From a virus, in IMG/VR virus record IMGVR_UViG_3300007735_000546, positions 1 to 26,281 of that record: a DNA stretch of 26,281 bases; one strand, 5' to 3'. Positions 2,684-26,211 of this stretch are shown here, in pieces. A program made the translations under genes and the position numbers. A model generated the notes under the pieces. The model made no database searches, was not told where the DNA came from, and saw only the letters and a program-made list of their open reading frames with translations. Numbering within the stretch: position 1 is the first letter of the stretch; the number at the start of each line of letters is the position of its first letter.

Positions 2684-2947
2684 TTACAACGCATCCTTTA
2701 GCCCTCTCTTTATGTCATCACGTAAGACACGCCTATCAGCAGGTGACAGACCGCCGAACACACCCCAACGATCATCATCCTCTGGCAAGTTGATCACCAA
2801 TTTGAGGCATTGCCTTTTGACCGTGCATTTCTTGCACACAGTTTTGGCTGCATCCCAACGATCCTCAGCAAGAGTCTGCGAGGCAAAGAACACCTCTAAC
2901 GGTTGCCCTATGCACAACGCATCCTCCCGCCAATGATCACGCTTCAT
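2684..2947 (-). CDS. whiB: WhiB-family iron-sulfur transcription factor
   Basis: An 87-residue protein starting MKRDHWRED. Four cysteines stand at residues 12, 38, 41 and 47; the last three form C-x2-C-x5-C, the pattern that holds the 4Fe-4S cluster in WhiB proteins. RWGVFGGLSPADRR follows, matching the WhiB G(V/I)(W/F)GG turn, then a basic C-terminal tail (KRGLKDAL). WhiB proteins bind the host primary sigma factor and alter promoter choice; some phage copies repress host whiB genes. A longer in-frame extension upstream exists but covers the 59-residue gene in another frame and lacks a ribosome site, so the short start is preferred. It overlaps that gene by 11 bases. This is the best host marker in the window. 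Confidence 0.93.
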   Translation of the reverse strand: MKRDHWREDALCIGQPLEVFFASQTLAEDRWDAAKTVCKKCTVKRQCLKLVINLPEDDDRWGVFGGLSPADRRVLRDDIKRGLKDAL

Positions 2948-3116
2948 TCTCACCGATCCATAGGTTGTATGAATACAACGCTGCTCGTAGTTGCTCAATA
3001 GACAAACGATCAGTCCCGTCAGACCTGACCACAGCACGGGCTGCATCTGCCAAATCAACCAGAACAACAATCATTTTGCTTCGCAACGCATCCATCTCCG
3101 CAAATGGTTCATTCAT
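2937..3116 (-). CDS. Small hypothetical protein, 59 residues
   Basis: Translating from the ATG at 3116 gives 59 residues, starting MNEPFAEMDALRSK and ending LWIGENEA. The start overlaps the stop of the annealing-protein gene as TAATG, and the end overlaps the WhiB start, so the gene fills what would otherwise be an odd gap in a gapless operon. The protein looks like two helices joined by a short loop (RSDGTDR), with a hydrophobic MIVVLVDLADAARAVV segment that is more likely a buried helix than a membrane span. Family not recognised. Confidence 0.7.
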   Translation of the reverse strand: MNEPFAEMDALRSKMIVVLVDLADAARAVVRSDGTDRLSIEQLRAALYSYNLWIGENEA

Positions 3117-5960: not shown

Positions 5961-6193
5961 TTCACCCCATCTTGCAAACGGTAACGCCCGCGAGAAGCGC
6001 AGAAGCCACCATTCGGCATATCGTATCCACTGGTAACTGCTTGCTCACCGTCAACCATTGTCCAATGCCAGAATGATGAACCGCACCTGCAAGGCTCCTC
6101 CCCGTCATTAATCATTTCCATTGTTTCTGCATCATCGGTCACAAAACCACAAGACAAACATTCAAGCCGTTCAATTCCGTGATAGGTAGCCAT
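5957..6193 (-). CDS. Zinc-binding hypothetical protein, 78 residues
   Basis: Starts MATYHGIERLECLSC at the ATG at 6193, which overlaps the preceding stop as TGATG; an in-frame GTG just upstream is possible but unnecessary. Cysteine pairs CLSC (residues 12-15) and CRC (35-37) could hold one zinc ion, with EMINDGEEP between them. The C-terminal half (FWHWTMVDGEQ, SGYDMPNGGFCASRG) is aromatic and glycine-rich with no known motif. It belongs to a run of three zinc-type genes at the front of the early operon. Not recognised beyond that. Confidence 0.75.
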   Translation of the reverse strand: MATYHGIERLECLSCGFVTDDAETMEMINDGEEPCRCGSSFWHWTMVDGEQAVTSGYDMPNGGFCASRGRYRLQDGVK

Positions 6194-6678
6194 CACTTAA
6201 CCGCCTTTTTCTTGGCAGGTGTAACCATTTCAAGGTACTTTGCCACATCAATCTTGTATGACCGCCTTAGAACCTGATTCTCTGAAACTCGAGCCTCTGT
6301 GCCATCAGCAAACTTCAGAATCATGTAGTACTGATAAACCGTTTCAAGTCTGTCTCCCTTAAACGATCCACAAGATTCATCTGTTACCTCAATGCCCACA
6401 ATTTCCCTCCAAACCTTGTTGTATGCAATGAGATCACCAACATTCATTTTGTTTGGTGTGCAACGCTTGTGGGTGTTGATTTCTTCCAGCATTGCCCGCC
6501 ATGCAGCCTTTGCACGCTTCTGGATTGTGTACCCAGAACCGCCGCACCTAAAGCACTTTGATCCAGTTATTTGGTTGAATGAATAGTGCCCTGTCGTGCC
6601 GCAGCGCGAGCATTCATCAAGCGGGAAACCATGCTTATTGAAAATCTCCCCATCTATTACTTGCACTTCTGTAACCAT
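6193..6678 (-). CDS. Zinc-finger (DnaJ-like CxxC) hypothetical protein, first gene of early operon
   Basis: A 161-residue protein starting MVTEVQVIDGEIFN at 6678. An in-frame extension to 6753 would run through the leader hairpin and lacks a ribosome site, whereas the chosen ATG follows GAGGAGGG closely. Residues 24-50 contain CSRCGTTGHY and CFRCGGSGY, a DnaJ-like zinc-finger pair. The rest resembles a small beta-rich domain (KMNVGDLIAYNKVWREIVGIEV, YYMILKFADGTEARVSENQVLRR) that may read or bind a ligand, with a Lys-rich tail. As the first gene behind the putative promoter and structured leader it is probably made early and strongly. Possible nucleic-acid-binding role; function unproven. Confidence 0.82.
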   Translation of the reverse strand: MVTEVQVIDGEIFNKHGFPLDECSRCGTTGHYSFNQITGSKCFRCGGSGYTIQKRAKAAWRAMLEEINTHKRCTPNKMNVGDLIAYNKVWREIVGIEVTDESCGSFKGDRLETVYQYYMILKFADGTEARVSENQVLRRSYKIDVAKYLEMVTPAKKKAVK

Positions 6679-6681
6679 TTG

Positions 6682-6730
6682 CGCCCTCCTCTTGAGCAGG
6701 GGTACTTCCCCATGCCTCAAAGATAGGGCA
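6682..6730 (-). promoter_or_regulatory. Structured leader copy B: 5' hairpin plus strong ribosome site
   Basis: On the minus strand this leader reads CCCTATC-TTTG-GGCATG, then a hairpin GGGG-AAGTA-CCCC (plus-strand stems 6699-6702 and 6708-6711), then TGCTCAAGAGGAGGG, which ends in the ribosome site of the gene starting at 6678. A second copy with the same layout lies at 26145-26191, where the stem bases differ but pairing is kept. If transcription starts about seven bases after the -10, the hairpin sits at the very 5' end of the mRNA. Confidence 0.65.
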
Positions 6731-6748
6731 TTTAGCAAGGCAAAGCAA
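6720..6748 (-). promoter_or_regulatory. Putative promoter of early operon
   Basis: On the minus strand a TTGCTT (743-748 of the 6700s, i.e. 6743-6748) is followed after 17 bases by TATCTT (6720-6725). Both hexamers are close to the bacterial primary-sigma consensus TTGACA/TATAAT at the usual spacing. It precedes structured leader B and the long early operon. The comparable arrangement before leader A supports it. No experimental proof is available from sequence. Confidence 0.5.
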
Positions 6749-9573: not shown

Positions 9574-10892
9574 GTACGCCTCGTAGGTGCAGGTGACGGT
9601 AAAGCAACAAGGATTGTAGTACCTGCAATGATTGTGCGTCTGACAGCAACATTGACATTAGAACCAAGCGGCACGTAAGCACTAAAGCCATCATTGCCGA
9701 AAATGTTTAGCGTCTCCTCAAACGCCTCTTTCACTTCATCAGGCACAGCAGGATCATTCATTGCATCAGAAATCACGGCTGCCATTGACTCAGATAGTTG
9801 TGTTGGTTCAATCTGCTCAAATAGTTGCTGTGCCTGATTCCTTGTGATTGCAGAAAGCACCTCGACAGCCGCAACCAACTGTTCAGCCTGATCTGATGTG
9901 ATTTGACTGTCCAGAATTGTGTCCACAATTTGCGCGACCTCATCTGGTGTTGCTTCCGATAGTGCAGTTAGGGCTTCCACAAACTGTGCTTGTGTCAAAG
10001 GCTCTCCCGTTTCTGGGGGTGTATAGATACTGGTTGTGGTTTCTGGTGCGCTAGAAACGCTTACAGAGGGCAATAAGGGGATTGTGGTGGCGGGGAGACT
10101 GGTGCTTGTAACCTGTGGGAATGTGGTCAGCGTTGTTTCTGGTAGCGGTTCTTGCGTGGTTGTTGTGGCTGGTTCTGAAGTGGTTGCCACGACTTCTGCA
10201 GCAGGTTGAGGAAGTGGTAGGGGAATAGATGAGGTTGTTTGGGGCAATGCTGTTGTTGTTTGTAATACTGCCGTTGTGGTTGGCTGGTAAATAGATGTTG
10301 TGGTGGTGCTTGGCGGCATCTCCGTTGTCGTGGTACTTGGTTCTAGCGTTGTTGTGGAAGGTGTCGGCAACGGTTCGGAAGTAAAGAACTCTGGTTGCAC
10401 AATTGCCCAACCCGTGTTGTCAATGTTCCATGCAAGCATGAAACAAGTTCCCCCGCCATTCTCATAAAACCACGCATCCAAAGGCTGTGTGCCTGCAGCA
10501 ATATCAATCAGCCCTGTTTCCGTTGCGGAACAACCCTGATCCTGCCAAACACCAAACTCATCCGTACCGATCTTGACCGTGCCACCATCATCAGATGCAA
10601 CCCAAAACTCAATGGTGTCATGCTCAGGGATTTGCAAGAAGCCTGTGTAATGCAGCATAAACAAATCACCACCGCACTGCTGATAGGGCTGCCAATCCCA
10701 CGTGGCATTAATAAACGACTCAACAGAACTACCGCATAGAGGGTAAGCAATATCAGATTTAGTTGGTGGTATCTGATCTATCTGATAGCCGCGAACCAGC
10801 AGACCAACCTGTGATGCTTCAGCAGACTGTGGTGCAAACAATGCGAACAGTGCAACAGGTAGAAAGATCAGCCAACGGGAACTTCTACCCAT
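9570..10892 (-). CDS. Secreted PA14-domain protein with threonine-rich stalk
   Basis: A 440-residue protein. Residues 1-26 are a signal peptide (MGRSSR, hydrophobic core, cut after AEA). Residues 28-172 fit a PA14 domain, a carbohydrate-binding beta fold: FLQIPEHDTIEFWVASDDGG, then AGTQPLDAWFYENGGG and W; four cysteines (53, 73, 121, 150) could form disulfides outside the cell. Residues 173-298 are a Thr/Pro/Ser-rich stalk with many TTTT runs. Residues 299-396 are helical with three repeats of an (L/I)T-x2-QA-x2-L pattern. The last 40 residues include a short hydrophobic run ending PTRRT, possibly an anchor. It lies directly before the membrane/lysis genes. A host-surface adhesin, a lysis helper or a virion component are all possible; export points away from a simple virion protein. 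Confidence 0.85.
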   Translation of the reverse strand: MGRSSRWLIFLPVALFALFAPQSAEASQVGLLVRGYQIDQIPPTKSDIAYPLCGSSVESFINATWDWQPYQQCGGDLFMLHYTGFLQIPEHDTIEFWVASDDGGTVKIGTDEFGVWQDQGCSATETGLIDIAAGTQPLDAWFYENGGGTCFMLAWNIDNTGWAIVQPEFFTSEPLPTPSTTTLEPSTTTTEMPPSTTTTSIYQPTTTAVLQTTTALPQTTSSIPLPLPQPAAEVVATTSEPATTTTQEPLPETTLTTFPQVTSTSLPATTIPLLPSVSVSSAPETTTSIYTPPETGEPLTQAQFVEALTALSEATPDEVAQIVDTILDSQITSDQAEQLVAAVEVLSAITRNQAQQLFEQIEPTQLSESMAAVISDAMNDPAVPDEVKEAFEETLNIFGNDGFSAYVPLGSNVNVAVRRTIIAGTTILVALPSPAPTRRT

Positions 10893-25760: not shown

Positions 25761-25934
25761 TTACTGTTGCTTCATCCGCATATCTGCCAATGATTGTGCA
25801 AACGCAAGTTCAATAATTTTGTTCTGCCTTACACGGATTCGGTTGTTCAGCCAATCAATCTCATCCTGCAATTTGTCCCTTCTGATAACCGCAAGATCAA
25901 TTTCCTTCTGGTATTCAGCAATGGTCTTTTCCAT
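25761..25934 (-). CDS. Small coiled-coil protein, 57 residues
   Basis: The frame from 25934 reads MEKTIAEYQKEIDLAVIRRD and ends LADMRMKQQ. The ATG overlaps the preceding stop (TGATG) and has GAGGAGG eight bases upstream. The whole protein is a single charged helix with heptad spacing of Leu/Ile (KLQDEIDWLNNRIRVRQNKI), so it is likely a coiled-coil oligomer. Function unknown; expressed with the 68-residue protein under the structured leader, it may be an early regulator or inhibitor. Confidence 0.75.
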   Translation of the reverse strand: MEKTIAEYQKEIDLAVIRRDKLQDEIDWLNNRIRVRQNKIIELAFAQSLADMRMKQQ

Positions 25935-26140
25935 CACTTGACCTCCTCAAGTACATATTCTCTATTGCCAGCAACCAATCTGTTTCCCCAATGCGCACGC
26001 ACATCTTGTTCTGAGTAACCATCCACAATGGAATACTGACGCAGTTCAAGATTCTGGTAATCACCAAAACCATCGCGCTCATCGTATGTCTGGACATTGA
26101 TCCAAACAAGAACTTTGTATTGCTTCAATTTCTTTTTCAT
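25934..26140 (-). CDS. Small hypothetical protein, 68 residues
   Basis: Starts MKKKLKQYKVLVWINVQTYD after GGAGG seven bases upstream. It has a basic N-terminus, a beta strand (YKVLVWINV), a central acidic/aromatic stretch and ends GNREYVLEEVK; probably a small single-domain protein. It is the first gene behind putative promoter and leader A, so it is likely expressed early and strongly. Not recognised. Confidence 0.75.
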   Translation of the reverse strand: MKKKLKQYKVLVWINVQTYDERDGFGDYQNLELRQYSIVDGYSEQDVRAHWGNRLVAGNREYVLEEVK

Positions 26141-26144
26141 CTAA

Positions 26145-26191
26145 GCCCCTCCTCTTGAGCAGCCCTTGTGGGCATACCCAAAGGATAGGCA
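26145..26191 (-). promoter_or_regulatory. Structured leader copy A: 5' hairpin plus strong ribosome site
   Basis: Same layout as copy B at 6682-6730: GCCTATC-CTTTG-GGTATG, then a hairpin GCCC-ACAA-GGGC (plus-strand stems 26162-26165 and 26170-26173), then TGCTCAAGAGGAGGGG, ending in the ribosome site of the 68-residue gene. The hairpin stem differs in sequence from copy B but keeps four G-C pairs and similar position, suggesting that the structure matters. Confidence 0.65.
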
Positions 26192-26211
26192 CAAACCCAC
26201 CCACAAACCAA
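26182..26211 (-). promoter_or_regulatory. Putative promoter of the small-gene operon
   Basis: On the minus strand, TTGGTT (26206-26211) is followed after 18 bases by TATCCT (26182-26187), like the TTGCTT/TATCTT pair before leader B. Distances to the hairpin and ribosome site are similar in the two copies, which supports both being promoters. Upstream lies a G/T-rich stretch of unclear meaning. Confidence 0.45.

Follow-up and report, generated by a model that had tools for sequence, protein, structure and literature searches.

Two adjacent covarying hairpins, at the predicted 5' end and around the Shine-Dalgarno sequence, define a phage leader family

The window analysed is the whole of a 26,281-base IMG/VR virus record, and all the records used were metagenomic fragments. 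The terminase, portal, protease, major capsid and tape measure genes present in it make it a tailed phage. As it also carries a WhiB-family gene and its terminase has its best match in Pontimonas phage phiPsal1 (39%), the host is likely actinobacterial. Two leaders lie at distant operon starts, both on the minus strand, and the coordinates and sequence given for them by an earlier, sequence-only reading were found correct. Both leaders have the order -35/-10, six bases, A(+1)U, a hairpin, UGCUCAAGAGGAGGG and the start codon (Table 1). The first hairpin has the stem GCCC/GGGC in one copy and GGGG/CCCC in the other, and the claim of that reading that pairing is kept in spite of the changed letters holds in relatives too, which keep pairing with changed stems. 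The conserved block that it placed before the start codon is present in both copies; the same block also forms a second hairpin, which it had overlooked. The product of the gene behind leader B showed a zinc-knuckle-like match with a score below the Pfam cutoff.

Table 1. Positions of the two leaders, their elements and neighbouring genes in the window
Feature	Position	Strand	Basis or remark
WhiB-family gene	2684-3070		Pfam PF02467, E 1.4e-14
Gene behind leader B	6193..6678	-	161 aa, Cys-rich; heads nonstructural operon
Copy B hairpin 2 UGCUC-AAGAGGA-GGGCG	6682..6698	-	RNA folding; Shine-Dalgarno (SD) within 7-base loop
Copy B block UGCUCAAGAGGAGGGCG	6698-6682	-	ATG at 6678
Copy B hairpin 1 GGGG-AAGUA-CCCC	6699..6711	-	RNA folding
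Copy B -10-like hexamer TATCTT	6720..6725	-	predicted +1 = A6713
Copy B -35-like hexamer TTGCTT	6743..6748	-	sequence
Gene behind leader A	25934..26140	-	68 aa, no family; first gene ahead of terminase/portal/capsid operon
Copy A hairpin 2 GCUC-AAGAGGAG-GGGC	26145..26160	-	RNA folding; SD within 8-base loop
Copy A block UGCUCAAGAGGAGGGGC	26161-26145	-	ATG at 26140
Copy A hairpin 1 GCCC-ACAA-GGGC	26162..26173	-	RNA folding; at +3 of predicted mRNA
Copy A -10-like hexamer TATCCT	26182..26187	-	predicted +1 = A26175
Copy A -35-like hexamer TTGGTT	26206..26211	-	sequence; 18 bp ahead of -10

The 15-mer core occurs exactly twice in the window. The covariance model (CM) found copy B (6680-6725, 33.5 bits, E 3.9e-05), and copy A, whose hairpin 2 loop has 8 bases, scored under the cutoff. 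RNA folding formed both hairpins in all seven promoter-type leaders tried. The window leaders themselves fold no better than their shuffles (z -0.63 and -0.17), so two copies by themselves leave the structure unproven; it is the relatives that prove it.

A search for exact matches to the 15-mer found 39 viral stretches. Many of these are chance matches, but in about a dozen a promoter and a hairpin precede the core and the start codon, and the stems differ. Many further copies were obtained from terminase relatives and from a second scan with a 17-mer, which revealed up to six exact core copies in one contig stretch; one record held nine core sites at no more than one mismatch, all on the same strand. 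The family core reads UUCAAGAGGAGGAC or UGCUCAAGAGGAGGG. Since UCAAGAGGAGG precedes 75 downstream protein clusters, the leader is, judged by its neighbours, independent of the downstream gene and not part of one gene. Among 84,980 genomes of bacteria and archaea only 4 core matches turned up, in an archaeon, a Lachnospiraceae bacterium, Desulfonema and Weeksellaceae, against about 30 expected by chance. No leader match was obtained at the Rfam gathering score in the window or in eight relatives, and blastn of the consensus leader against INPHARED returned no real copy, only two 21-base chance matches. Remnants of tRNA upstream of some copies were ruled out, as ARAGORN found none. The phages with the leader are an uncultured group, and their hosts are probably aquatic actinobacteria.

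The copies expected at other operon starts were found: a hairpin stands immediately upstream in 82 of the 213 distinct core sites, while shuffles give 6.3. The search for this hairpin made no reference to a -10, and TANNNT lies 10-14 bases ahead of the hairpin in 62 of the 82 sites and almost never elsewhere. A -10-like hexamer, six nucleotides and A(+1) are seen in 71 of 76 family members, and a -35-like TTGNNN at 17-18 bp from the -10 is common. The suggestion that the hairpin would be the first thing in both mRNAs is in accordance with the 76 members, all of which have at most two unpaired bases before the stem counting from the predicted +1; this +1 is taken as seven bases beyond the -10 and the hexamer was chosen in a short range, making the step partly one of construction. 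The 'GG-x-ATG' described as shared is not conserved: relatives mostly have AUC, some AC, at the predicted start.

Hairpin 1 has 4-8 bp, including some G.U pairs, and an A-rich loop of mostly 4-5 bases. The relatives were fetched by terminase or exonuclease and not by the leader; the exonuclease gene upstream of leader B served as the anchor for its loci, which removes selection on the leader itself. Upstream of the terminase, the relatives L042, L043, L044, L047, L050, L051 and L056-L058 keep the pairing of copy A hairpin 1 with changed outer pairs and loops. Changed stems with the layout kept include GGGG/CCCC, UGCCC/GGGCA, AUCAGUU/AACUGGU and AUUGGGU/GCCCAAU. The orthologous leaders in many relatives lie roughly 400-530 bases past the end of the exonuclease gene, come after a -10-like hexamer and six bases, and have among their stems GGGG/CCCC, AUCAGUU/AACUGGU, AUCGGGU/AUCCGAU, AUUGGGU/GCCCAAU and AUCGGG/CCCGAU. 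Sealing of the 5' end by hairpin 1 is not universal, because L279, L286 and L292 lack it, with +1 AUCA followed directly by hairpin 2. The distant exonuclease-anchored group L256-L266 has neither leader hairpin 1 nor the ribosome-binding site (RBS) ACCCUGAGGAGGGA. The latter is repeated in a sister lineage (L226, L235, L267, L268, L270, L274 and others), where the SD is in a hexaloop on a CCC/GGG stem and several members retain hairpin 1 at the predicted +1.

The SD core (GAGGA, or GGGA) is held by hairpin 2 in a loop of 6-8 bases, 4-9 bases before the start codon, on a weak stem of 3-5 bp. The loop and its closing pairs are invariant (UC-AAGAGGA-GG) and the lower stem covaries freely, as AGUUC-AAGAGGA-GGACU, UGUUC/GGACA, GAUUC/GGAUC and UGCUC/GGGCA; further classes are GACUC-AAGGGA-GGGUC and CCC-UGAGGA-GGG. 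Three classes of flank occur within one genome (L009), and the class AGU/ACU dominates. All three outer pairs are formed in 63 of the 86 protein-anchored sites, against a mean of 31.3 and a maximum of 42 in 2000 shuffles; a broken outer pair, AGUUC/GGACA, is found at seven sites. Most of the remaining core sites are inside operons, often right behind a stop codon, and have hairpin 2 without hairpin 1. Another RBS context, AUCGCUAAGGAGGCGAA, at 7 sites (protein-anchored L042-L121, L215-L292), may also form an SD-in-loop hairpin, UCGC-UAAGGAG-GCGA.

Covariation in related phages, the absence of which would have spoken against the sequence-only reading, was found in both stems. In the seed alignment A3, 94.3% of cells are paired, compared to 85.8 for shuffled and at most 49.3 for slid versions; eight pairs changed on both sides (2.7 shuffled), with a covariation of 0.307 versus 0.148. 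In helix 2 of A3 pairing reaches 100% and three pairs differ on both sides; its rows were chosen, so this figure leans to structure. In A5, the set of hits that the CM found near the exonuclease anchor, helix 2 is 95.9% paired with a covariation of 0.279 against 0.124 shuffled and at most 0.081 slid; this alignment is fitted to the model, and CM-based alignments lean toward their structure. As relatedness inflates shuffle tests, slid and outside controls were used. For the outside control all viruses were scanned for TCAAGAGGAGG with ATG 4-8 bases on and the flanks free. Among its 83 sites 42 had no flank pairs and 24 had one, whereas nearly every site of the family is fully paired, so the RBS does not of itself bring flank pairing. 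The starts of Pontimonas phage phiPsal1 and of TM4 had no more SD-loop hairpins than shuffled flanks did, so such a hairpin is not a general property of actinophage starts. The family, its layout and the covariation of both stems are thereby established by sequence comparison. In helix 2 a U.G pair is almost invariant and helix 1 has G.U pairs, both of which argue for a structure acting as RNA rather than DNA.

At 20 places among the relatives a type II hammerhead core, GACCGAAAC..GUC^UAGC..GCUACUGAUGAGGUC, takes the place of the promoter (L111:3643-3697; also L101, L114, L122, L135, L140, L145, L170, L171, L210, L213 and others); the type was not found in the window. The core GAAA..NUH..CUGANGA is in type II order with three stems, and the best Rfam match is Hammerhead_II (RF02276) at 20.6 bits, E 0.029 in 131 bases, below the 37-bit gathering score. 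Stems I and III covary. The pseudoknot between loop I and the tail after stem II, known for the type II hammerhead (PMC3088659), has 85% of cells paired and no both-side changes. The predicted downstream cleavage product would start 5'-OH-UAGCG..CGCUA, again a hairpin. The hammerhead 3' tail overlaps the leader hairpin UGAGGU/AUCUCA, and since it also forms that hairpin, ribozyme and leader hairpin may be mutually exclusive. In all, 61 distinct type II hammerheads were collected (L302-L358 and leader-linked loci) from phages of 27-61% G+C. An SD and ORF start follow within 140 bases after 55 of the 61, compared with 20% for random positions, with a median distance of 28 bases after CUGAUGAG; phage hammerheads seem to lie preferentially just ahead of ribosome-binding sites. 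A different structured RNA, a three-way junction (GCCUAG..CUAGGC) followed by ACAAGGY..RCCGA, also stands just before the same SD hairpins (L009 about 10150-10205, L028, L048, L112, L125, L126, L133, L201, L235, L249 and L115 about 1540-1600). Its nine sequences have 95.6% of cells paired and a covariation of 0.58 against 0.16 shuffled; it has no credible Rfam match and is possibly a new RNA or ribozyme.

Compensatory base changes preserve both hairpins, which makes a role in mRNA stability or translation very probable. The explanation favoured here, with moderate confidence, is a phage-specific cis-acting structured translation leader of two adjacent hairpins with 5'-end protection. We infer the transcription start from the -10, and infer likewise the 5' protection and the effect on translation. 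Hairpin 1 would start at the predicted +1 and seal the 5' end, which would impede decay that depends on the 5' end and prevent misfolding of the leader. Protection is suggested by the preference of RppH-type enzymes for single-stranded 5' ends; BsRppH requires a 5' end with two or more unpaired bases and favours those with at least three (PMC3997798). The window copies have two, which is borderline for such enzymes, and the host's enzymes may differ. Hairpin 2 would show the 30S subunit a defined, self-contained ribosome-binding site. It is the constant part, reused inside operons, and hairpin 1 would be added where a new 5' end arises, at a promoter or, in relatives, beside a self-cleaving hammerhead. 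The occurrence of the SD hairpin without hairpin 1 in operons moves the emphasis to translation initiation.

A translational operator, in which a phage or host factor (a repressor or an SD-cutting nuclease) reads hairpin 2 and hairpin 1 is secondary, is possible and is considered the less probable explanation. The invariant loop and closing pairs over a freely covarying lower stem are the usual mark of a loop-reading protein, and the same element ahead of unrelated genes on one strand would let a whole gene set be switched together. Against a regulator of the CsrA kind, no CsrA was found in 12 phage records, which are fragments, in a search whose positive control worked, and a CsrA regulon was rejected on this ground; a search for a RegB-like nuclease found none, which says little as its positive control was silent. 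No candidate binding protein emerged from these fragments.

An operator at the DNA level is improbable. The inverted repeat would be bound by a repressor or activator dimer, and it sits exactly at the start site, the classical operator position; the repeats of the Cluster K extended start-associated sequences (ESAS), whose arms overlap the promoter, have been read so (PMC3203893). A DNA site needs conserved arms, but those of hairpin 1 differ strongly among the copies of single genomes (L002, L009), the pairing that is kept includes G.U, the A-rich loops are asymmetric, and the SD hairpin recurs without a promoter. Because the stems differ within a genome while pairing is kept, one protein-DNA site for two operons is unlikely. 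It is also very improbable that the leader is merely a strong inherited promoter and ribosome-binding site with hairpins arisen by chance or drift: the strong SD, the promoter and the unremarkable fold energies of both window copies would suit this, but compensatory changes in both stems exceed the shuffled and slid controls and unrelated copies of the same RBS lack flank pairing. Least credible of all, and rejected, is a leader peptide in which the AUG at the predicted +1, present in both window copies, serves as leaderless start codon for a short ORF that lies upstream of the gene and is coupled to it; the 12-codon frame of copy A does end in a UGA overlapping the gene's AUG, but the block of copy B is in another frame with no such stop and most relatives have AUC, some AC, at +1, so that neither frame nor AUG is conserved.

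Beyond the structured translation leader, a wider reading is tentative and rather doubtful: a genome-wide structured start code. If true, every mRNA would open with a protective hairpin, whether a promoter or a hammerhead makes its 5' end, and one phage-encoded factor that reads the SD-in-loop hairpin of each regulated gene would turn the set on or off; the start-associated sequence (SAS) of cultured actinophages would be a further form of this switch. The function of actinophage start-associated sequences has been a question since 2011 (PMC3203893, PMC11373665). Covarying SD flanks in a natural family indicate that the conserved feature is an RNA hairpin and open the way to a direct test, and the finding of one leader at both promoter-made and ribozyme-made 5' ends offers a hypothesis for the hammerheads before phage genes.

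Among known systems the leader is closest to SAS/ESAS and to 5'-terminal stabilising stem-loops, and falls fully within neither definition. SAS/ESAS are known from Cluster K mycobacteriophages and Cluster EF Microbacterium phages (PMC3203893, PMC7302621, PMC11373665). The likeness lies in a repeated, over-conserved RBS sequence just ahead of numerous phage start codons, joined in some cases by a SigA-like promoter and an inverted repeat upstream, and mostly before small or nonstructural genes; the defining feature, a highly conserved AGGAG-bearing sequence 3-9 bp before many starts, is seen in the leader as well. The leader core does not match the SAS consensus GGGATAGGAGCCC or GGGAAAGGACCCC and is unrelated in sequence, although for GGGAUAGGAGCCC and GGGAAAGGACCCC a hairpin with the SD in its loop, resembling hairpin 2, can be drawn. 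SAS flanks hardly vary, whereas those of the leader SD covary: in the sites read in TM4, Pixie and Adephagia they are nearly invariant, with one compensatory CGG..CCG in Pixie. This Pixie variant, CGGATAGGAGCCG (L295 2520, record position about 30519), has both outer bases changed with pairing kept and hints that SAS too may be an RNA hairpin. The ESAS of the same three phages have conserved inverted-repeat arms of about 17 bp overlapping the promoter, which according to their authors do not support RNA pairing; such arms are absent from the leader, where hairpin 1 starts at +1 and its arms vary freely with pairing kept. For these reasons, near-invariant SAS flanks and conserved promoter-overlapping ESAS arms, the leader is kept apart and is not a SAS/ESAS member.

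The 5'-terminal stabilising stem-loops of ompA and papA and the aprE leader of B. subtilis (cited in PMC3997798) resemble the leader in having a hairpin within a few bases of the mRNA 5' end, here a predicted one, before the RBS. Unlike them, the leader is a repeated phage family at many operons and has a second, SD-bearing hairpin. The likeness to the type II hammerhead concerns the relatives only, with the full core and the loop I / 3' tail pseudoknot at the place of the promoter. T4 RegB targets and CsrA sites also expose the GGA of the SD in a hairpin loop, whereas the leader GGA is on the 3' side of its loop. In the T4 RegB precedent the GGA is unpaired and the next G constrained (PMC3014915), and the loop of leader hairpin 2 fits this arrangement.
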